Assembly (NCBI RefSeq): GCF_015244705.1
Contig: NZ_JABCQF010000011.1
Location: 1 to 64,000, forward strand
DNA length: 64,000 bases
Origin: Gluconobacter potus
GTDB taxonomy: Bacteria; Pseudomonadota; Alphaproteobacteria; Acetobacterales; Acetobacteraceae
Reading direction: 5' to 3'
The notes under the pieces are model-generated. The model made no database searches, was not told the origin of the DNA, and was given only the letters and a program-made list of their open reading frames with translations. A program made the position numbers and the translations under genes. This document shows, piece after piece, positions 1,581-26,951 of this stretch (its first letter is position 1; each line of letters opens with the position of its first letter).

Positions 1581-3089
1581 TCACCACGCCGGCCCTCTCT
1601 CATCTTCCCCCTGATCCCGGAACCAGGTCGTTGGTCCGTCGAACCACATATCCACGATCCCGCCTTTGCTGCCCCGGTTCTTGAGGATCAGGACTTCGCC
1701 CTTGCCTCGCGACCGCTCGAGATTGGCGTCGAATTCTGCTGCCCGCTTCTGATAGACGGCGTCGCTCTCGTTTGTGTTCCGGACTACGCTGCCGTCGGCT
1801 CCGATCCGGGACTGGAGCGCATGCGCCTCGCGATACACCCCGAGGATGCAGCGGGCGTCCTGCTCGATTGCACCACTCTCCCGGATGTCGGACATTCCCG
1901 GCCGTCGGTCTTCCCGGTTTTCGGACTGCCGGTTGAGCTGGGAGAGGGCTATGACGGGAACTTTCAGTTCGCGCGCCATGCGGGCAATCTCGCCGCTGAT
2001 CTCAGTGACTTCGTTCACCCGGCTTCCCGAGCGGCGCACGGCATCGCTGCCGCGCAGTAGCCCGATGTAGTCGATGACGATGAACTTCAGGCCTTCAGGC
2101 TCTCGCGCCATGCGTCGCGCACGGATAGCGATCTGCTGGACACTCAGCCCTTCGCGGTCATCAATCACCAGCTGAATACGCTTCTTGGCTTCCATACCGG
2201 CCTGAACAATCCGCTGCATGGTCGTGCCTGACACGGGCTCCGGACCATTGGGGCCGTCGAACATGCCAGTCAGCACCGTGTCGAGGGTCAGGCCGCATCG
2301 AGCGGAGACCACGCGACCCATCAGTTCCTCGGCTGGCATCTCGCCAGACCAATACATCCCACGGCCCTCCGCAATCGCCATGCGCGTTGCAATCCCGATC
2401 CCGAGGGCTGACTTACCCATGCCTGGTCGGCCCGCGATGACATACATCGCACCAGCACGGAAGCCGCGAATGCGCTTGTTCAGCGTCTCGTACCCGCAGT
2501 CGAGACCGGACAGGTAATTCCCGGCTTTCCAGGATGCTTCTGTCTCGGCCAACAGCGCATCGGTGGCCGCACTCGCAGTTCTTGCCTGTCGGGTGCCGTC
2601 CGTGCCAGCAGCCAGCCCCTGAAGCTGCTCCTGCATGCGGCTGATGATCGAGGACGCCGTGTCTCCCTCAAACTCGTTGGTGCCCCACAAGACGCTGCTT
2701 GCGATATCCCGAATGCCCCGTCTGGTCGCCATGTCCACGATCTCGCGGGCATAGGCTCGGATCAGGCTGTGGGGCGCAGCTATCATACCTTCCATGGTCT
2801 CGATCAGGGCTTTCTCGACCCCATACTCACAAACCACTTCGTTGGCCTGGAGGGCGTTTCGGATCGTCACGGGATCGGCAAGTCTCCCGGATCGGATTAC
2901 ATCCCCGCAGATCCGGAAAATCTCGCCTCGATATCTGGCGGCGAAATGCTCGGGCCTGAGGATGTCGGCCACAACGTCGTAATCGGCGTTGCGAAGCATG
3001 ATGGACGCGAGAACGCCGCGCTCGGCCATGATGTTTTCCAGCGCAGGTGGCTGGGGCGGCTGCAGCAGTCCGTGGAGATTTTCACTCAT
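1581..3089 (-). CDS. DnaB-like replicative helicase (phage type)
   Basis: A 502-residue ring helicase of the DnaB family that would unwind DNA ahead of the fork at the element's origin. Residues about 15-120 match the DnaB N-terminal collar domain, which binds primase or the loader. Residues about 190-490 are the RecA-like motor: Walker A GRPGMGKS at 220-227, a Walker B-like stretch (FIVIDYIGLL) near 335-345, and a following SQLNRQSE segment typical of DnaB motif 3. The length is normal for the family. Its ATG overlaps the stop of the upstream gene by four bases (ATGA). Together with the initiator gene two places upstream and its iterons, it makes the element replication-competent in principle. 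Its divergence and setting favour a phage helicase over the chromosomal dnaB. Confidence 0.9.
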   Translation of the reverse strand: MSENLHGLLQPPQPPALENIMAERGVLASIMLRNADYDVVADILRPEHFAARYRGEIFRICGDVIRSGRLADPVTIRNALQANEVVCEYGVEKALIETMEGMIAAPHSLIRAYAREIVDMATRRGIRDIASSVLWGTNEFEGDTASSIISRMQEQLQGLAAGTDGTRQARTASAATDALLAETEASWKAGNYLSGLDCGYETLNKRIRGFRAGAMYVIAGRPGMGKSALGIGIATRMAIAEGRGMYWSGEMPAEELMGRVVSARCGLTLDTVLTGMFDGPNGPEPVSGTTMQRIVQAGMEAKKRIQLVIDDREGLSVQQIAIRARRMAREPEGLKFIVIDYIGLLRGSDAVRRSGSRVNEVTEISGEIARMARELKVPVIALSQLNRQSENREDRRPGMSDIRESGAIEQDARCILGVYREAHALQSRIGADGSVVRNTNESDAVYQKRAAEFDANLERSRGKGEVLILKNRGSKGGIVDMWFDGPTTWFRDQGEDERGPAW

Positions 3090-3655
3090 CGGGAAACCCT
3101 CACATCCCGGGCTTCCGGAATGAAATCCTCACGCTTCGGTGCTGGACCTTCATGACCGCCTGCCGCCCAGTTCCGGCGTGCCGTGGCATAGGCCGCAAGA
3201 GCCGGCTGCTGGATGACCCGCTCGATCGCCTGACACTGCGCTTCCATTGCCGCGGCATAGCCGCTCAGATGGGCATACAGCTCGGCCGGGTAGGGCCAGA
3301 ACTTGCCGGGAATGCGCCCTGAAGCATCCGGGCCTTTCTGTAGCCATGATACCCGGGTTTCTCGTACCCACACGCCCTGGGGCAGGTCGGCACAGATCTC
3401 CGCAATTACAGCCACGGCGTCGCGGAAATCGGTCTCGCTGGCTGGCGGATTAGCCACGAACTTGCACAGCCGCGTCAGCCAGGCGCCCATCTCGCCAGGT
3501 GTGCCGGGACGCATCGACCGCCGCATGTCGGCCAGCGCCTGAACGGCTTCCTCGTGGACCTGACGGCACAGGGGCGGATCCGGATCATGCTGCCCGATGA
3601 GCTGGGCCAGAAGCGCGGAATGCGGACGAACGGCGAGGGAGAGGCTCTGGCTCAT
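3086..3655 (-). CDS. Hypothetical protein of the replication operon
   Basis: This 189-residue protein is not recognised with certainty. It is translationally coupled on both sides by ATGA overlaps, between the initiator-like gene and the helicase gene. Genes in this position in lambdoid or P22-like replication modules often encode helicase loaders or accessory factors, but there is no Walker A loop here, so it is not an AAA+ loader of the DnaC type. The sequence is mostly helical, with an acidic middle and a conserved-looking Trp-rich stretch (FWPYPAEL). The placement suggests a replication accessory or regulatory role; this is inference from context only. Confidence 0.75.
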   Translation of the reverse strand: MSQSLSLAVRPHSALLAQLIGQHDPDPPLCRQVHEEAVQALADMRRSMRPGTPGEMGAWLTRLCKFVANPPASETDFRDAVAVIAEICADLPQGVWVRETRVSWLQKGPDASGRIPGKFWPYPAELYAHLSGYAAAMEAQCQAIERVIQQPALAAYATARRNWAAGGHEGPAPKREDFIPEARDVRVSR

Positions 3656-4518
3656 CGTCCGTCGAACTCCGGCGAGGCGAAATGCTGCTCGAGCGATCGG
3701 CCAAAGCTCTGGCGCTTCGGCGTAGCACTGGCAGGAAAGCTGCCTTTCGGCTCGAACACCCCGGTCCAGCCGCGCTCGGTGCTGGTGTCGAGAATGGCTT
3801 CGACGTCATGGCCGGCGCTCCGGAATGCCTCAAGCTTGCGGAGAACGCCCTGGATGGCCCGGACCGTTCGGGGAGCCTTCTTCGCCTTGCGGGTCTGGAG
3901 GTATCCGCCCCACGCCTCGGCCGGAAGCCATGAGGGCAGGTCGAGGCTCACGGTCCGGATCTTGCCGTCGTCGTCCTGCTCGCGAAAAGTCATCGAAGCG
4001 GCTTCGGAAGCAGCGGGGGACTGTAGGGGGTTTGGGGTCTTGGATGGTTTATTTGGGTTATATATGGGTTTGGGTGCAGCTGGTGCACCCCTAAATGACG
4101 TGAGCTGCACCCCTAAGCTACCTGAGCTGCACCCCTGACTGGCGTGAGATGCACCCCTGCCGGTTGTTTCCTGCACGATCTGCACCCCTGAAATGGAGTC
4201 AGCAGGAGGCACATCATCAGGCGTCAGAATGTCCATCCGCAGGCGGTAATTGACCGGTCGACGACCAGCGTGTGCGATCTTGAGCCGGACGATCTCCTGA
4301 TCGCCCATTTCCATGACGCCGGCGGCAATCAGATCATCGACCTTCTTGCGCACGGTACGTTCGCTCAGCTTTGTCATCTGAACGATCACCTCGGTGGAGG
4401 GAAAGCAGTCCTCTCCACTGGGCGTGGCGAAGTTGGCGTATGCCAGCAGGACGCTGACCGCCAACGGATCCGTGACGACCGTCTGGGCCCAGGCCCATGT
4501 CATTGCCTGCACGCTCAT
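3652..4518 (-). CDS. Phage replication initiator with N-terminal helix-turn-helix
   Basis: The first ~110 residues of this 288-residue protein form a winged-helix domain like those of phage and plasmid initiators (PSTEVIVQMTKLSERTVRKK is a clear helix-turn-helix). The middle is a low-complexity linker. The C-terminal ~110 residues (from about SLDLPSWLPAEAWGGYL) resemble the tail domain of phage replication proteins. The layout recalls lambda O: DNA-binding head, origin inside the gene, and a C-terminal part that would meet the helicase or loader. The linker is encoded by 22-bp iterons, described separately. It overlaps its neighbours by four bases on both sides. An ordinary transcription factor is less likely, given the helicase in the same operon. 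Confidence 0.78.
   Translation of the reverse strand: MSVQAMTWAWAQTVVTDPLAVSVLLAYANFATPSGEDCFPSTEVIVQMTKLSERTVRKKVDDLIAAGVMEMGDQEIVRLKIAHAGRRPVNYRLRMDILTPDDVPPADSISGVQIVQETTGRGASHASQGCSSGSLGVQLTSFRGAPAAPKPIYNPNKPSKTPNPLQSPAASEAASMTFREQDDDGKIRTVSLDLPSWLPAEAWGGYLQTRKAKKAPRTVRAIQGVLRKLEAFRSAGHDVEAILDTSTERGWTGVFEPKGSFPASATPKRQSFGRSLEQHFASPEFDGR
4041..4189. repeat. Iteron array and AT-rich tract: candidate replication origin
   Basis: The nonamer TGCACCCCT occurs at 4084, 4106, 4128 and 4150, exactly 22 bp apart, with a degenerate copy at 4172 (TGCACGATC) and another full copy at 4181. Beside it, at about 4045-4070, lies a short AT-rich stretch (GGTTTATTTGGGTTATATAT) that could melt. The repeats lie inside the initiator gene. 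Since 22 is not a multiple of 3, they are read in all three frames and give unrelated peptides, so the pattern is kept at DNA level. This is the classical look of initiator-binding iterons next to a DNA unwinding element. Confidence 0.72.
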
Positions 4519-5585: not shown

Positions 5586-5617
5586 AGTTACCGACACGGT
5601 CACCGGAAGTGGTTACC
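5586..5617. promoter_or_regulatory. Operator region of the CI/Cro-type switch
   Basis: Between the divergent regulators lies AGTTACCgacacGGTCACC (5586-5604), two similar half-sites five bases apart, and a further GGTTACC at 5611-5617. The same bipartite arrangement occurs at 12954-12972 on the other orientation. Location and repetition suggest binding by the CI-like or Cro-like protein. Confidence 0.6.
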
Positions 5618-5626
5618 AATCGTGTC

Positions 5627-6283
5627 ATGACTGATCATCCGACCAGATTGGCCGATTTCATGGCCCGTGCACGCCTGACCGACCCGGAACTGGGGCGGCG
5701 GGCGGACACGTCGAAGCAGCAGATTTTCAAGCTCCGGAAAGGCGAGCGGAAGATGTCCCGCGAATGGGCGGAACGTCTGGCGCCACATTTGGGCGTGACC
5801 TGGCCGGAACTCATGGAAGGGGACTGGCGCCTGGCTCCTGCACCCCAGAGCGGGCTTCCGCCGGCACTCCATCCCAGCATCTCCATTCCGGAATACGATC
5901 TTGCCGAAGCGGACGGAAAATCCCCCGTTGAAAAGCTGACGGTTCTGGCCCACTGGACGCTCCCGCATGAGATGGTGCGGGCTCATGCCGGCGAAGGCGC
6001 GGAACTCGGCTTCGTCCGCGTCTCTGACGATGCCATGACACCCGATTATCTGCCGACTGACCGCGTGCTGATCGATTTTGCCCACAAGGTGCCGTCACCG
6101 GCCGGCGTTTATCTGCTCTGGGATGGGGCAGGGATCGCACTGAGGCAGTTAGAGCCTCTCGTGGGGAGCATGCCTGCAACAGTCCGGGTCAGCGCCACCA
6201 GCAAGCGTTACAGCCCCTATGAGCGTCCGGCTGCTGCTCTCGCCATTATCGGCAAGGTCGTTGGAAAGTGGTCCTGGACCTAA
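5627..6283 (+). CDS. CI-like phage repressor, S24/LexA-type C-terminus lacking catalytic residues
   Basis: Taken from the ATG at 5627, the protein has 218 residues: an N-terminal helix-turn-helix (RLTDPELGRRADTSKQQIFKL, about 17-37) and a C-terminal half with the S24 peptidase-like layout (VSDDAMTPDYLPTDRVLID, then PAGVYLLWDG, then GIALRQL). In LexA and lambda CI the loop reads G/D-S-M, with Ser as nucleophile, and a later Lys activates it. Here Ala136 sits at the Ser place and Arg173 at the expected Lys place. The protein probably keeps the dimerisation fold but should not cut itself, so induction would need another route, for example an antirepressor. It is divergent from the Cro-like gene across the paired operators. 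Confidence 0.82.
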   Translation: MTDHPTRLADFMARARLTDPELGRRADTSKQQIFKLRKGERKMSREWAERLAPHLGVTWPELMEGDWRLAPAPQSGLPPALHPSISIPEYDLAEADGKSPVEKLTVLAHWTLPHEMVRAHAGEGAELGFVRVSDDAMTPDYLPTDRVLIDFAHKVPSPAGVYLLWDGAGIALRQLEPLVGSMPATVRVSATSKRYSPYERPAAALAIIGKVVGKWSWT

Positions 6284-15649: not shown

Positions 15650-16016
15650 GCCTCTCGAAGAAACCCTGACCCTTCAGGACGTTCTGACGCGTCTCAAAGG
15701 CCGTGTTGGGCGCACAAAGCTCCATGCGCACTTGAGGCGCGTGAAGGAATTTCATGGTGGTCCGACGCATCGTCGTTGGGGTCACCGAATCATCTTTTAC
15801 CCGGCGGATTTCAAACGCCTGCTACTGAGCCTGGAATGCCCCTCAAACTCTTCAAACGCGGCCGGTCGGAAACCTACTACGTTCGCGGAACCGTCAAAGG
15901 ACAGAGCGTTTATGAAAGCTCAGGAACTTCTGACCCCCACCAGGCGGAAGAATACAGGGCGAAGCGCGAAGCCGAACTCTGGCAGGAAAGCATCTATGGC
16001 AAGCGGGCCGTCGTAA
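15642..16016 (+). CDS. Excisionase-like small DNA-binding protein
   Basis: The ATG at 15642 has a good ribosome-binding site (AAAGGAG). Residues about 8-62 (LTLQDVLTRLKGRVGRTKLHAHLRRVKEF...HRIIFYPADFKRLLLSL) form a small winged-helix domain of the AlpA/excisionase type; an Xis bends DNA at the attachment site and steers the integrase towards excision. The remaining ~60 residues are low-complexity and lie in the 181 bases that also encode the integrase N-terminus in another frame, so the tail may be unimportant. Position directly upstream of the integrase gene fits an xis-int pair. Confidence 0.66.
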   Translation: MSEPLEETLTLQDVLTRLKGRVGRTKLHAHLRRVKEFHGGPTHRRWGHRIIFYPADFKRLLLSLECPSNSSNAAGRKPTTFAEPSKDRAFMKAQELLTPTRRKNTGRSAKPNSGRKASMASGPS

Positions 16017-16939
16017 CCTTCGCTCATGCGGTCGCTGCCTATGTCGAGGCAGAGCCGCGTTCCGAAGCGACAAAGGCCTATCTTCGCCGTCTGCTGGACC
16101 ATTTCGGCACCACGCGCCTGGCAGATATCGACCAGACCGCGCTCGATCAGGCTTATCGGCACATTCTGCGCGATGGTGCCGAGGCCAGTCCTGCCACAAA
16201 AGTCAGGTCCGTTCTCACGCCTTTGCGCTCTGTCCTAGAATTTGCCGCTATCCGGAGGTGGTGCGAGCGTCCGGCCTTCGACAAGCCGCGTATTCCGATG
16301 AGCCGGACGGTTTATCTCAGGCCCGAGCAGGTGACGGACCTGATCGATAACGCGGCACCGCACCTGAAGCCGTTGCTGGTCTTCCTGTTCGGAACCGGTG
16401 CCCGCATGTCAGAGGCTCTCGAACTGGACTGGGCCTGCGTCGACCTGAAGGGGAAACGGGCTGTCGTCTGGCAGAAGCAGGGGAACGAGCGGCATATCGA
16501 TCTGCCACCCCGTGTCTGCGAATCACTGGCTTCTCTCCCGAACCGGGATGGCCGCGTGTTTCGTCCTGTTCGTGCTCGGAAGTCGAGAAATGGGAAGGGC
16601 AGGGAGATCGGGGAGGCCTATTCGGAAAACGGGCGGACCAGCGGCGGCCAGATCAAGTCCGGATGGTCAGTGGCGTGTCGCAAAGCGGGTCTGCCGGGGC
16701 ACATGCGCGTATGGACACCCAAGGGGCAGGAGAAACCGAAGAGCGTATTCGTCCCGGACATCACCCCGCATGATGCCCGCCACACATGGGCGAGCTGGCA
16801 ATACTGTTTGCACAAGGATCTGATGCGTCTCAAGGCTGACGGGGGATGGGGCAACATCACAACGGTGACGCGCTACGCCAAGGTGATGCCGGACGCTTAT
16901 CGGGATGAGATCATGGAATGGCTCGGAATCGGTGGCTGA
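15836..16939 (+). CDS. Tyrosine-family site-specific integrase
   Basis: From the ATG at 15836 the integrase has 367 residues. Residues about 5-50 look like the arm-binding domain, 55-140 the SAM-like core-binding domain, and 155-360 the catalytic domain. Catalytic residues are visible: Arg190 (GTGARMSEALELDW), His312-x-x-Arg315 (PHDARHTWASW), Trp338 in the box-III position and the nucleophile Tyr347 (TVTRYAKV). It would insert and, with the Xis, remove the element. It ends 190 bases from a tRNA-Val gene, and integrases of this type often use tRNA genes as targets. Starting at an earlier in-frame codon (15776) is possible but would leave only 20 unlikely residues. Confidence 0.92.
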   Translation: MPLKLFKRGRSETYYVRGTVKGQSVYESSGTSDPHQAEEYRAKREAELWQESIYGKRAVVTFAHAVAAYVEAEPRSEATKAYLRRLLDHFGTTRLADIDQTALDQAYRHILRDGAEASPATKVRSVLTPLRSVLEFAAIRRWCERPAFDKPRIPMSRTVYLRPEQVTDLIDNAAPHLKPLLVFLFGTGARMSEALELDWACVDLKGKRAVVWQKQGNERHIDLPPRVCESLASLPNRDGRVFRPVRARKSRNGKGREIGEAYSENGRTSGGQIKSGWSVACRKAGLPGHMRVWTPKGQEKPKSVFVPDITPHDARHTWASWQYCLHKDLMRLKADGGWGNITTVTRYAKVMPDAYRDEIMEWLGIGG

Positions 16940-22411: not shown

Positions 22412-23844
22412 GGGCGAACTGCTGCCTGCCGGGCAGGGACATGAAATCCGCCGCCGGTCGCCTTGTAGAGATCGACCGAGGCGTTCAGCCGCTGGATCCT
22501 TGCCGAGACCTGTGCGAGCCGTGCCTGCTGGACGATGGCCTGTGCGGTCAGGAGGTCGATCCGGCTGGCGTAGCCATTTTCAAGCCGCAGCGTCGTAAGG
22601 TGCAGACGGTGCTCGTCCGACGCTACCCGGGAGGTGGTGTCGCCTTCGCGGTCTGCGGCGGTCTTCTGCGCCAGAATGGCGTCCCGCACTTCCTTGAAGG
22701 CGGAGCGGATGGACTGCTGGTAGAGGATCACCTGCTCGTTCTTCCCGGCTTTTGCGAGCCGGACGCCACTTTCCGTGCGTCCGAAATCCAGAACCGGCGC
22801 CGCCATGGCCGCCCCCAGTGTCCATGCGCGACCCGTAGCCCGGTACAGGTTATCGATATCGACGTTATTCACGCCCGCAAGGGAGGCCAGGGAGATCGAC
22901 GGGAAGTAGGCCGCCCGTGCGAAGCCGATATTGAAATTGCTCGCCATCAGCATCTGTTCGTGCATGGCGATATCGGGCCGGCGCTCAAGCAGTTCCGAGG
23001 GCAGAAGGGACGGGGTCGCTTCCGGGACGGTCATGTCCCCGATATTCCGGCCGCGGGGAAGTTCGTTCTGGATGATGCCCTGCGGGGACTGGCCGATCAG
23101 GACCGCGAGAGCGCTTTCGGCCCTGTCGCGCTGGTCTTCCATGTCCGGCAGGAGTTCGTGGACGGTATCGCGCCGTTCCCTCACGCTCTCAAGGGTGAGG
23201 GCATCCGTGGCACCCACGTCGTATTGCCGCTGGACCAGCGCCAGGAGATCGTCCTGTGTCTGGGCCGTCTGTTTCAGAAGGGCCACGTCCTCATCCAGCG
23301 CGCGCAGGCTGAAATAGAGTTTTGCAACACCCGCGACGACAGAGAGCCGTGCTGCATCCATCGCATAGACACCAGCGTGAACCCCGGCTTTCGCCGCGTT
23401 GCTGAGACTGGCGTTCTTGCCCCACAGATCGAGTTCATAAGTGAGCATTCCGCCGACAAACCCGAGATTGCTAGTCTTGTTCGGAAAATGGAGGCTCTGG
23501 TTCAGGGCGCTGACCCGTCCGTTCGCGAACTGTCCGTAGGCATCGGCTCCCGCAATCGACAGCATGGGGAGCTGGTTGGCGAAGGCATAGCCGTACTGGG
23601 CTCTGGCCTGCATCAGACGGTTGCCGGCCAGGGCAATATCGTCACTGTCCCGCAGGGCAGTCTGGACGATCTGGTCGAGAACCGGATCGCCATAGCTGTG
23701 CCACCATGTCCGGTCATCGCGCACCACGGCGGCGGCTCCCGGCCATGTTGCGGGAAGGGGCATCGCGGGGCGTTTGTAATCCGGTGCCAGCCAGGAACAT
23801 CCCGCCAGAAGCAGCGGGGCAAAGAGAAGCCATCTGCGCATCAT
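22408..23844 (-). CDS. RND efflux outer membrane factor (NodT/TolC type)
   Basis: From the ATG at 23844, which overlaps the pump's TGA, the product has 478 residues. It begins with a signal peptide and lipobox LLAGCSWLAPDYKRP, as in the OprM/NodT branch of TolC-like outer membrane factors. Two long helical repeats can be followed (for example ALRDSDDIALAGNRLMQARAQYG and ALDEDVALLKQTAQTQDDLLALVQRQYDVGATDALTLESVRERRDTV), the usual alternating coiled coil and strand pattern of the trimeric channel. It completes a tripartite pump with the adaptor and inner membrane transporter upstream. Confidence 0.92.
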   Translation of the reverse strand: MMRRWLLFAPLLLAGCSWLAPDYKRPAMPLPATWPGAAAVVRDDRTWWHSYGDPVLDQIVQTALRDSDDIALAGNRLMQARAQYGYAFANQLPMLSIAGADAYGQFANGRVSALNQSLHFPNKTSNLGFVGGMLTYELDLWGKNASLSNAAKAGVHAGVYAMDAARLSVVAGVAKLYFSLRALDEDVALLKQTAQTQDDLLALVQRQYDVGATDALTLESVRERRDTVHELLPDMEDQRDRAESALAVLIGQSPQGIIQNELPRGRNIGDMTVPEATPSLLPSELLERRPDIAMHEQMLMASNFNIGFARAAYFPSISLASLAGVNNVDIDNLYRATGRAWTLGAAMAAPVLDFGRTESGVRLAKAGKNEQVILYQQSIRSAFKEVRDAILAQKTAADREGDTTSRVASDEHRLHLTTLRLENGYASRIDLLTAQAIVQQARLAQVSARIQRLNASVDLYKATGGGFHVPARQAAVRP

Positions 23845-26800
23845 GCGGCTCCTTCTGCCGGATCGGGGGTGGGTTCGCGGACACGGAACCAGATGACGTA
23901 AAGCGACGGCAGGAAGATCAGGGTCAGGACCGTGGCAACGGCCAGGCCACCCATGATGACATCGGCCATCGGCCCCCAGAAGACGCTCGATGCGATCGGG
24001 AGCATGCCGAGGATGGCGGCCACGGCCGTCAGCATGATGGGCCGGAACCGGATCATGGCGGCATCGACCACCGCGTCCCATTCCGACTTGCCGGCCTGCT
24101 GCTCGATCTCGATCTGGTGAACGAGAATGACCGAGTTGCGGATGATCATCCCGACCAGCGCCACAAGACCGAGCATGGCGATGAAGCCCATCGGATGCTG
24201 CGAGATCAGGAGGGAGGCGACAACACCGATCAGGCCGAACGGCGCAACACTCAGGACCAGCGCCAGACGCTTGAAACTCTGAAGCTGGATCATCAGCACC
24301 GCCATCATGATCAGGAGCATGACCGGCATGACCGCGACCACGGACCCCTGGGACTTCGCGCTTTCCTCGACCGTTCCGCCGACTGCAAGATGATAGCCGG
24401 GCGGCAGGCTGGCATTGAACGCGGCCATTCTGGAAGCCAGTGCGGAGACCGCGGCATCGGGCTGTATGTTGTTCTGGAGCTGCGCCTGGACCGTCATGGT
24501 CGGCAGGCGGTCACGGCGCCAGATCAGGGGATAGTCTTCCACATACGAGACTGTCGCTACCGAAGACAGGGGAACGGTCAGGTCGTTCGGGAGGCGGATA
24601 TCGAGATTTCGCAGCTGTTCGATCGACAGGCGTTCGTCCTTGTTGGCCCGCAGGACAACATCGACGAGATAGATGCTGTCACGTAACTGCGTGACGGTCA
24701 TGCCGGTGACCGTGGAGTTGATGGCCATGGCAATGGCGGACGAGGAGAGCCCCAGTCGCCGGGCGTCTTCCTGACGGACATCGATCCTCAGTTTCCGTGC
24801 CGGGTCGCCCCAGTCGAAGTTGATCAGGCGCAGATTATGGCTCTCGTCCATGATGCGTGCGACCTGCTGCGCATAGTCGCGGACCCTGTCGGGATCGCGG
24901 CCGCTGATGCGATACTGCACGGGCCAGCCCACGGGCGGTCCGAGTTCCAGGGCGAACAGGCCATGCACGATGTCCGGGAACTGTCGGCTCAGGGCTTCAT
25001 CGAGACGATGGCGGACACGTTCGCGCGCCGCGGCATCCTTGGCGACGATTACGGTCTGGGTGAAGAAATCGTTGGGAAGCTGTTCGTCAATCGACAGATA
25101 GAAGCGGATGGCGCCACGACCGACATAGGAACTCCAGTGGTCGATATCGGGATCGTTGCGCAGCAGGGCGTCCAGCTTGCGGGAGACATCCGCCGTTGCC
25201 GTGATTGAAGATCCCTGTCGCAGCGATAGGTTGACGAGCAGTTCTGGACGGTCCGAGGCCGGGAAGAACTGCTTTGGCACAAGCGGCAGCAGGAGCAGGG
25301 CTACAGCGAGCGCGCCGAGGCTGGCAAAAACCGTTACCCGCGGATGATGCATCGACAGCAGCAGGAAACGCCGGAACGTGGTCAGGATCCGTCCGGGCGG
25401 ACGGGGCGTTGCGGTTCCGGTCGTCGCTTCGGGATGTTCGCGCAGGATCGTGATCCCAATCAGCGGCGCGACCAGAACGGCCACGAACCAAGAGACGACC
25501 AGCGCGATGCCCACCACGGCAAACAGCGAGAACGTGTATTCGCCCGCAATGCTGTGCGCGAAACCGACCGGCACGAAGCCCGCGATCGTCACCAGTGTGC
25601 CCGTCAGCATGGGGAAGGCCGTGGATGTATAGGCGAAGGTCGCGGCCCGTGCACGGGTCCAGCCTTCCTCCAGCTTGCTGACCATGCTTTCGACGGTGAT
25701 CATGGCATCATCCACGAGCAGGCCAAGCGCGATGATCAGCGCGCCCAGAGAGACACGCTGAAGGTCGATCCCGAAGATTTCCATGCAGGTGAAGACGACG
25801 GCGAGGACGAAGGGGATGCAGAAGGCCACCACAGTTCCCGCGCGGCCGCCAAGGCTGAGGAAGCTGATGCCCAGCACGATGGCGATGGCCTCGAAAAGGG
25901 CTTCCGTGAAGTCACCAACAGCGTCTTTCACGACCTTGGGCTGGTTGGCGACGAGATGGGCCTCAATCCCGACAGGCATCCGCGCATGCAGCTTCGTCAT
26001 CGTGGCGGAAATGTTCTTTTCCATCGCAAGGACGTTGCCGCCGGAACTCATGGAAATCGCCAGACCGATGGCGTCCTGTCCGTTCACGCGGAACATGGTC
26101 TGCGGAGGATCGGAATAGGAGCGGGTAACAGTGGCAATGTCTCCCAGGCGGATCTTGCGGCTTCCCGCATAGACCGTGACGTTCTCGATGTCCTGCACCG
26201 AATTGAACTGCCCGGTGGGCTGGATCCGGATCTGCTCCGTTCCGGTATCGAGCGTGCCGGAAGGCATGAGGACGTTCTGCGCCAGAAGCGACGATGCGAT
26301 CATCGCACTGTTGATCCCCAGCCGGGACAGATGGTGGCTGGACAGATCGACATAGATCTTCTCGTCCTGCGCGCCCAGCGTCTCGATCTTGGCGACATCG
26401 GGGACGTGCAGCAGTTCGTCGCGGACCGTTTCGACGTAATCCCTCAGGTCACGATGGGAAAAACCCTGTGCCGTGAAGGCATAGATGATGCCGAATGTAT
26501 CGCCGAACTCGTCATTGAAGAACGGACCCGCGGTTGTGGAGGGCAGGAAGACCTTGAGGTCGCCTACCTTCTTGCGGACCTGGTACCAGATATCCGGAAC
26601 CTTCGTCTTGGGTGTCCCCGACTGCAGATTGAGCAGAATCGTGGTTTTTCCCGCGACCGTGTAGCTTTTGACGTAGTCGAAGTAAGGCGTTTCCTGCAGC
26701 TTCTTTTCGATGGGATCTGTCAGGAGATGGGCCGTTTCCTCGACGGAGGCACCGGGAAGCATGGCCTGCACGACCATGGTCTTGACGGTGAACGGAGGGT

Positions 26801-26951
26801 CCTCGTTACGCCCCAGGGCGAAATAGGACCTGAAGCCCGCCACACCGATCAGGATCATGAAGAAAAGAACGAGCGCGCGATGGTTGATCGACCAGCGCGA
26901 CAGGTTCACACCACCGGGGGCCGGAGACTCAGGGGCGGACATCGGCGTCAT
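23841..26951 (-). CDS. RND-family efflux transporter
   Basis: A full-length RND pump of 1036 residues with the typical 12 membrane helices and two large periplasmic loops. It starts LSRWSINHRALVLFFMILIGVAGFRSYFALGRNEDPPFTVKTMVV, a signature of HAE1-like RND proteins. The proton-relay pattern is seen in the fourth helix, GLLVDDAMITVESMVSKLEEG, and the second half has the matching helix (MGFIAMLGLVALVGMIIRNSVILV). The pump uses the proton gradient to drive out drugs, solvents or other toxic molecules; substrate unknown. The ATG at 26951 overlaps the adaptor gene by 23 bases; a second Met three codons later is also possible. Confidence 0.94.
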   Translation of the reverse strand: MTPMSAPESPAPGGVNLSRWSINHRALVLFFMILIGVAGFRSYFALGRNEDPPFTVKTMVVQAMLPGASVEETAHLLTDPIEKKLQETPYFDYVKSYTVAGKTTILLNLQSGTPKTKVPDIWYQVRKKVGDLKVFLPSTTAGPFFNDEFGDTFGIIYAFTAQGFSHRDLRDYVETVRDELLHVPDVAKIETLGAQDEKIYVDLSSHHLSRLGINSAMIASSLLAQNVLMPSGTLDTGTEQIRIQPTGQFNSVQDIENVTVYAGSRKIRLGDIATVTRSYSDPPQTMFRVNGQDAIGLAISMSSGGNVLAMEKNISATMTKLHARMPVGIEAHLVANQPKVVKDAVGDFTEALFEAIAIVLGISFLSLGGRAGTVVAFCIPFVLAVVFTCMEIFGIDLQRVSLGALIIALGLLVDDAMITVESMVSKLEEGWTRARAATFAYTSTAFPMLTGTLVTIAGFVPVGFAHSIAGEYTFSLFAVVGIALVVSWFVAVLVAPLIGITILREHPEATTGTATPRPPGRILTTFRRFLLLSMHHPRVTVFASLGALAVALLLLPLVPKQFFPASDRPELLVNLSLRQGSSITATADVSRKLDALLRNDPDIDHWSSYVGRGAIRFYLSIDEQLPNDFFTQTVIVAKDAAARERVRHRLDEALSRQFPDIVHGLFALELGPPVGWPVQYRISGRDPDRVRDYAQQVARIMDESHNLRLINFDWGDPARKLRIDVRQEDARRLGLSSSAIAMAINSTVTGMTVTQLRDSIYLVDVVLRANKDERLSIEQLRNLDIRLPNDLTVPLSSVATVSYVEDYPLIWRRDRLPTMTVQAQLQNNIQPDAAVSALASRMAAFNASLPPGYHLAVGGTVEESAKSQGSVVAVMPVMLLIMMAVLMIQLQSFKRLALVLSVAPFGLIGVVASLLISQHPMGFIAMLGLVALVGMIIRNSVILVHQIEIEQQAGKSEWDAVVDAAMIRFRPIMLTAVAAILGMLPIASSVFWGPMADVIMGGLAVATVLTLIFLPSLYVIWFRVREPTPDPAEGAA

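Follow-up and report, generated by a model that had tools for sequence, protein, structure and literature searches.

A tandem array of nine-nucleotide repeats lying within the replication initiator gene of a temperate phage is, judging from sequence comparison, very probably the replication origin of that phage. The array is located in a 64,000-nucleotide stretch of Gluconobacter potus DNA (hereafter, the window). A first-pass annotation had proposed an iteron-type origin inside the phage initiator gene, and this proposal is supported here: the array is not reproduced by shuffling the gene, comparable arrays recur across the initiator family, and the annotated origins of lambda and P22 are re-found by the same detector. 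As origins inside initiator genes are already known from lambda, P22, SPP1 and pSK41, the window exemplifies an established plan. Less expected are the generality and regularity of that plan, together with a second repeat, built on the motif AACC, that recurs with the helical period in the tract beside the iterons. Among the papers listed in literature searches, no survey of intragenic phage origins was apparent from titles and the beginnings of abstracts.

An iteron array read in three codon phases

The repeat TGCACCCCT is present in five exact copies, spaced 22, 22, 22 and 31 bp, with the partial copy TGCACGATC placed 22 bp past the copy at 4150 (Table 1). The first-pass annotation had listed the same copies, and all of its positions proved exact. 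Tandem Repeats Finder reported a period of 22 over 4084-4158, with a score of 99. The unusual feature of TGCACCCCT is its spacing and clustering, not the frequency of the word: with up to one mismatch allowed, no enrichment was detected across the whole window (15 matches versus 16.1 expected). Counting both strands of the 3.42-Mb genome, the nonamer is found at 13 places, five of them within the 106 bp of the array, and the reversed word at nine; moreover, the array is the sole site in the genome with the 22-bp pair pattern, which occurs there three times.

Table 1. Features of the candidate origin and the surrounding operon (window positions).
Feature	Position	Strand	Evidence or remark
Iteron 1 (AGGGGTGCA on the coding strand), distal	4181..4189	-	exact match; 31 bp to next copy
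Degenerate iteron copy, at the 22-bp position	4172..4180	-	partial match TGCACGATC
Iteron 2	4150..4158	-	exact match
Iteron 3	4128..4136	-	exact match
Iteron 4	4106..4114	-	exact match
Iteron 5, adjoining the AT-rich tract	4084..4092	-	exact match
Perfect dyad on iteron 5, 7-bp arms, 5-bp centre	4072..4090	.	arm-match score
AT-rich, strand-skewed tract, candidate unwinding element	4031..4079	.	low GC and GC skew
AACC repeat in the candidate unwinding tract	4046..4070	-	copies at 4067-4070, 4056-4059, 4046-4049; spacing 11, 10
C-run/TA/C-run element (CCCCCTACAGTCCCC)	4016..4030	-	pattern downstream of the array
Replication initiator gene, 288 aa	3652..4518	-	HTH_36 PF13730 E=1.3e-6; phrog_678 'replication initiation O-like' E=7.7e-34
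N-terminal winged-helix domain, aa 1-97	4228..4518	-	AlphaFold2, ten-residue pLDDT means 76-95, one block 62; putative iteron binder
Predicted disordered linker, aa 99-171	4006..4224	-	AlphaFold2 pLDDT <50; encoded by iterons and adjoining tract
C-terminal alpha/beta domain, aa 175-260	3739..3996	-	AlphaFold2; putative contact to loader or helicase
189-aa gene, 4-bp overlap with each neighbour	3086..3655	-	candidate helicase loader by position only
DnaB-type replicative helicase	1581..3089	-	PF03796 E=2.6e-63; TIGR03600 phage_DnaB E=2.8e-94, below curated cut-off

All three codon phases of the initiator gene are used by the array. On the coding strand, the five copies fall in phases 2, 0, 1, 2 and 0, and are read as SGVQ, RGA, QGCS, LGVQ and RGA. 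The earlier statement that the repeats are translated in three frames thus stands, while that of unrelated peptides has to be narrowed, as these phases yield three kinds of peptide, not five. We also considered that the repeats could be a mere by-product of a repetitive, low-complexity protein linker, given that the linker is predicted to be disordered by AlphaFold2, and that some relatives carry codon-phased 21-bp or 24-bp repeats encoding repeated peptides. In the window, however, the copies occupy three phases and specify three kinds of peptide, and five copies were obtained in none of 2000 synonymous shuffles of the initiator gene, nor in any of 2000 mononucleotide shuffles. Such a by-product is contradicted for the window, where we find it barely credible, and may apply to the codon-phased relatives.

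Iteron 5 carries a perfect dyad, while the other four copies in the window reach 4 or 5 of 7 arm matches, that is, one copy in five is perfect. Among the iterons of the family, at least 6 of 7 arm positions match in 47% of the copies that stand first in their array, 49% of those that stand last and 35% of those in between, versus 9% of random positions.

The initiator, its operon and the predicted protein

The N-terminal helix-turn-helix named by the first-pass annotation is confirmed by an HTH_36 match (PF13730) over residues 23-67, which scores 28.5 bits and is above the gathering score of 25. The phrog_678 match spans amino acids 1-270, most of the protein, and phrog_6451 ('primosomal protein') matches amino acids 156-261. 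No match was found to PF04492 at E up to 0.1 or to TIGR01610 at E up to 0.01; the family of the window initiator has a Pfam domain other than that of lambda O.

The AlphaFold2 model of the initiator has an overall mean pLDDT of 68.9 and a pTM of 0.37, with a confident N-terminal winged helix. In this model, the predicted disorder coincides with the part of the protein that the array and the tract next to it specify. Comparison with PDB folds gave TubR as the best match, which is weak (E=0.015), alongside weak matches to 4pql (E=0.039) and 4pt7 (E=0.18), both of which may be RepA_N initiators. Since no match has an E below 0.015, and many of the matches listed are winged-helix DNA-binding proteins by title, the fold informs little beyond the presence of a winged helix.

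The operon with a DnaB-type helicase that had been described for this locus is present, as shown by the PF03796 gene, with the correction that a 189-aa gene intervenes and overlaps both neighbours. Profile matches of the 189-aa protein are weak and of unknown function (PF19457, E=0.009, below cut-off; phrog_16106, E=0.02); no NCBIfam match was obtained, and no loader family was detected in Pfam, PHROG or NCBIfam profiles. Its one relative in viral contigs, 95% identical, comes from the same UViG as L023, a near relative described below. Lying between the initiator and DnaB, it is a candidate orphan helicase loader.

A repressor gene (phrog_4, E=1.5e-15) at 5609-6283 (+) and an integrase gene at 15776-16939 (+) together indicate a prophage. 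Elsewhere in the window, at 23841-26951 (-), a 1036-aa open reading frame matches phrog_7301, of unknown function, with E=4.2e-150.

Recurrence of arrays across the initiator family

To compare the window initiator with its relatives, 126 genes were collected, of which 10 were removed because of their length or of ambiguous letters, leaving 116, and five were redundant, leaving 111. The relatives came from retrieved loci and from 40 further hand-picked places, weaker places being left out. Also excluded were L001-L004 and L039 (the window's own gene), L017-L020 (each the second piece of a gene that was in the set) and L066. As control ORFs, we took open frames of 180 aa or longer, called mechanically in the same loci, rather than annotated genes.

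The best 9-mer array beat all of 150 synonymous shuffles in 52 of the 111 initiator genes (the other 59 do not beat every shuffle) versus 2 of 122 control ORFs. Arrays with p<0.05 were present in 79/111 initiator genes and 9/122 controls, and four or more copies in 63/111 and 3/122, respectively. These fractions leave out ten viral loci that matched the query only in part (L028-L033 and L035-L038); their best arrays have only 2 or 3 copies, and including them would lower the fractions. When the same detector was applied to lambda O and to P22 gene 18, none of 300 shuffles matched the real array; in lambda it recovered three of the four iterons that are annotated, and in P22 three copies inside the annotated rep_origin.

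The words of the iterons were then compared with the proteins that carry them, in a set of 68 genes that had been selected for arrays (p<0.02) and that was also used for the dyad, AACC and C-run analyses. Similarity between words correlates with similarity between N-terminal regions (r=0.378). Once the C-terminal region is controlled for, a partial correlation of 0.335 remains (permutation p=0.0005), versus 0.045 (p=0.047) for the reverse partial. Mean word similarity is 0.67 for the 18 pairs similar in both regions, 0.54 for the 45 pairs with similar N- and dissimilar C-terminal regions, 0.36 for the three pairs of the opposite kind and 0.29 for the 1799 pairs dissimilar in both. The pair formed by the window and L094, at 0.27, is low among the 45, even though GGGGTG is found in both words. 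Overall, the iteron word tracks the N-domain rather than the C-domain, which supports recognition by the N-domain. The correlation supports such recognition rather than proving it, as the pairs are not independent of each other, and as the N-domain and the iterons are neighbours on the DNA, so that shared ancestry could yield part of the correlation.

The 45 pairs reveal that N- and C-domains have been exchanged among relatives, and the array might accordingly be a recombination joint for such swaps or, considering the weak TubR match of the model, a partition-like site, instead of an origin. However, because the word differs between N-domain groups, it would make a poor common crossover site, and what recurs across the family is the geometry and the unwinding tract instead of the word. 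We hold this reading to be decidedly improbable.

The AT-rich tract and its helical-period repeat

The AT-rich tract that the first-pass annotation had placed next to the repeats lies directly beside iteron 5, and includes 49-mers whose GC content, at 43%, is the lowest in the operon (several are tied). Moreover, the most GC-skewed 60-mers of the window start at 4015-4017. On the coding strand, the tract contains a chain of three AACC units about one helical turn apart. For the window itself, the statistical support is modest: the chain has p=0.023 against 3000 synonymous shuffles, and the second repeat was not significant in a less targeted 7-mer test (95/300).

Words containing AACC are enriched across the family. 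In the 120 nt after the array, as compared with the rest of the genes, AACCATC was counted 22 times versus 0.9 expected, and AGAACCA 24 times versus 0.6 expected. Chains of at least three AACC at 10-12 bp were present in 19 of the 66 genes with room for the test, versus 1.06 expected from synonymous shuffles. Raw counts, taken without shuffling, gave no chains of three or more in any of the 68 genes at spacings of 4-6, 7-9, 13-15, 16-18 or 19-21 bp, and none at 10-12 bp elsewhere in the gene, namely upstream (0/68) or in the C-domain (0/65). The AACC copies use all codon phases (22, 42 and 20 in phases 0, 1 and 2). An untargeted 7-mer test likewise detected a second repeat (p<0.05) in 20/66 genes, versus 0/68 upstream and 5/65 in the C-domain.

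The repeat was also approached from DNA only. When viral contigs were scanned for three GAACCRTC units spaced 11 bp apart, 41 stretches were returned, versus six for the reversed pattern; in 36 of the 41, the preceding 260 nt contain an array with four copies or more. Two of the remaining stretches (L150 and L173) begin less than 300 nt before the units. As to the others, L176 is read, by eye, in a frame differing from that of its relatives, L179 holds an HTH-like gene (by eye) with the units and no array, and in L161 the units lie outside any long frame of that strand. All 23 proteins that were aligned, 20 of them chosen from the 41 stretches, match phrog_678. The 41 stretches form 24 groups, in which the first unit falls in phase 0, 1 or 2 in 7, 12 and 5 cases, a distribution that again argues against a by-product of the protein linker. 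Without L161, L173 and L176, whose frames are doubtful, the counts are 5, 12 and 4; five of the phase-1 groups are mutually close, of an Arthrobacter type (by eye). One of the six reversed-pattern matches, L190, lies in an array-bearing frame and has AACCTACCAAG units at 11 bp, perhaps a variant of the second repeat. In 398 bacterial genomes, a strict three-copy AACC pattern with variable gaps gave one match, in a 42-aa frame without an array and outside any initiator, versus one for the reversed pattern, and is therefore no general finder in bacterial genomes.

The chances are roughly even that AACC units, one per helical turn in the unwinding tract and in all codon phases, represent a second and more general origin code beside the initiator-specific iterons. 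If so, recurring linker peptides such as EPS, NHQ/NRQ and TIK/TVN would be DNA signals in disguise, and AACC would perhaps mark sites where single-stranded DNA is held by the initiator or by the helicase loader. No report of an AACC repeat in phage origins was found in the titles and beginnings of abstracts of the papers listed in literature searches; for a search by short DNA and peptide strings, the papers listed were unrelated, which makes that search weak evidence.

A further element, CCCC-TA-CCCC, follows the array in 12 of the 68 genes, including the window, versus 0.18 expected from flanking DNA, and its matches start in phases 0, 1 and 2 in 5, 3 and 4 genes. A stricter form of the pattern is present in at least 120 viral stretches. 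Reading 80 of these (L195-L274) showed that in 79 the longest frame has it on its coding strand; when the coding-strand stretches are grouped, a single phase is shared by 29 of the 32 groups. The reversed pattern is not a valid control, as the element is almost palindromic letterwise and many of the same loci were returned. The element may be either a DNA site or a conserved protein motif. The strict stretches mostly encode PPKSPK or PPISPK, in genes with N-termini that are unrelated by eye.

The tract also bears on whether the array could be an operator, at which the helix-turn-helix protein, bound within its own gene, would repress or attenuate transcription of the replication operon, with the origin elsewhere. 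Repeated operators are often bound by winged-helix proteins, and regulators are encoded close by, the phrog_4 repressor among them. The array, however, sits in the middle of the gene, is adjoined by an AT-rich, strand-skewed tract with a helical-period repeat of its own, and occupies the position of the annotated origin in lambda and P22. An operator is hence unlikely in our judgement, and an origin is the preferred reading.

Comparison with known systems

Lambda O shares with the window four annotated iterons in the middle of the gene, adjoining an AT-rich tract as outlined in PMC7466680, and differs in its family (PF04492, 5.7e-36; TIGR01610, 5.4e-39) and in the gene that follows, which is P and not a DnaB. 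In P22, an annotated rep_origin lies inside initiator gene 18 and is followed by the DnaB-type gene 12; the repeat word is TCGGTAAAA, no gene separates initiator and helicase, and the sequence of the unwinding tract is another one. The first-pass annotation had likened the plan to that of lambda O with a different initiator and iteron. This holds for the repeats within the gene, the AT-rich tract and the other protein family, while the operon is closer to P22 18-12 and to SPP1 38-39-40. In SPP1, as summarised in PMC6316719, gp38 binds oriL repeats inside gene 38, and initiation requires the loader gp39 and the helicase gp40. By that description, products 38, 39 and 40 (initiator, loader and DnaB-family helicase) resemble the window operon, with the difference that the middle gene of the window has no detected similarity to a loader in Pfam, PHROG and NCBIfam profiles.

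Outside phages, the Rep protein of plasmid pSK41 is described in PMC5703833 as binding, with its N-domain, four Rep boxes located centrally in rep, with the origin-encoded middle forming a linker; according to the same account, and unlike the window initiator, this Rep has a DnaG-interaction domain. In a repABC plasmid, silent changes in an A+T tract inside repC abolish replication, and repC is presented in that account as having no iterons (PMC3155836). Two further phages are known here by description: Pseudomonas phage MD8, in which repeats lie within the O-like gene gp56 (PMC8508860), and Francisella phage KIRK, for which a lambda-like origin with four repeats was predicted from analysis of ORF43 (PMC7924643).

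A possible mechanism of initiation

Based on these results, we propose that the N-terminal winged helix would bind the GGGGTGCA iterons, which are spaced about two helical turns apart, in a series that would end in the full dyad beside the AT-rich tract. The resulting nucleoprotein complex would strain the tract, which may then open. The AACC units, which follow one another on the coding strand at intervals of about one helical turn, could be held single-stranded by the initiator or be exposed for helicase loading, a role comparable to that of the DnaA-trio of bacterial origins. Finally, the C-terminal domain, perhaps together with the 189-aa protein, would deliver the phage DnaB.

For few phages is there a detailed understanding of the way in which the initiator opens DNA. 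A helical-period AACC repeat shared by phages whose iterons differ would indicate that they have a step in common once recognition has taken place, either strand holding or helicase loading. Moreover, should the linker of this gene group reveal the origin, many phage origins could be predicted together with the pairing of initiators and iterons, yielding a natural code that relates winged helices to repeat words.

Relatives of the window and the 22-bp spacing

A tblastn search with the initiator returned 93 phage records, all below 60% identity, and a search of genome contigs with back-translated peptides gave no close relatives among 20 stretches. A near relative, L023 from IMG/VR, is 98% identical and differs at 17 of 867 gene positions: the five cores (45 bases) are free of differences, the array spacers have two and the tract after the array has one.

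The GGGGTG-type core and the 22-bp spacing are kept in six relatives (L094, L138, L139, L140, L144 and L145) gathered by protein similarity, with 32-42% identity over the matched region in five of them. The first-pass annotation had named disappearance of the 22-bp period in close relatives as evidence against an origin; this is not what was observed, the cores being unchanged in L023 and the spacing retained in these six. The window has AGGGGTGCA at 31-22-22-22, and L094, from the same phylum, has GGGGTGACA at 30-22-22-22; the Arthrobacter phages Andrew and Abidatro (L144, L145) carry C/TGGGGTGAA at 30-22-22-22, so that a 30/31-22-22-22 geometry is common to all four. In L138 and L140, CGGGGTGCA is found at 30-19-22-22. 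The word of JBD68, L139, is ACGGGGTGC; gp54 of this Pseudomonas phage is 40% identical to the window initiator over amino acids 1-162 and contains a five-copy array at 18-22-22-22 with one copy mismatched, while the next gene, gp55, is DnaC-like, unlike that of the window. The core identity of 86% in this clade, versus 37% for the spacers, is partly circular, as the GGGGTG core and the 22-bp spacing were the selection criteria.

Other relatives have different words in the same place of the gene. In L005, L008 and L009, from genomes of the window's own taxonomic family, the initiators share a 21-21-27-21-21 geometry and the words differ. In addition, L054 has an initiator-like gene in which a CCCCTCCAA-type word is repeated, in nine copies, every 22-23 bp.
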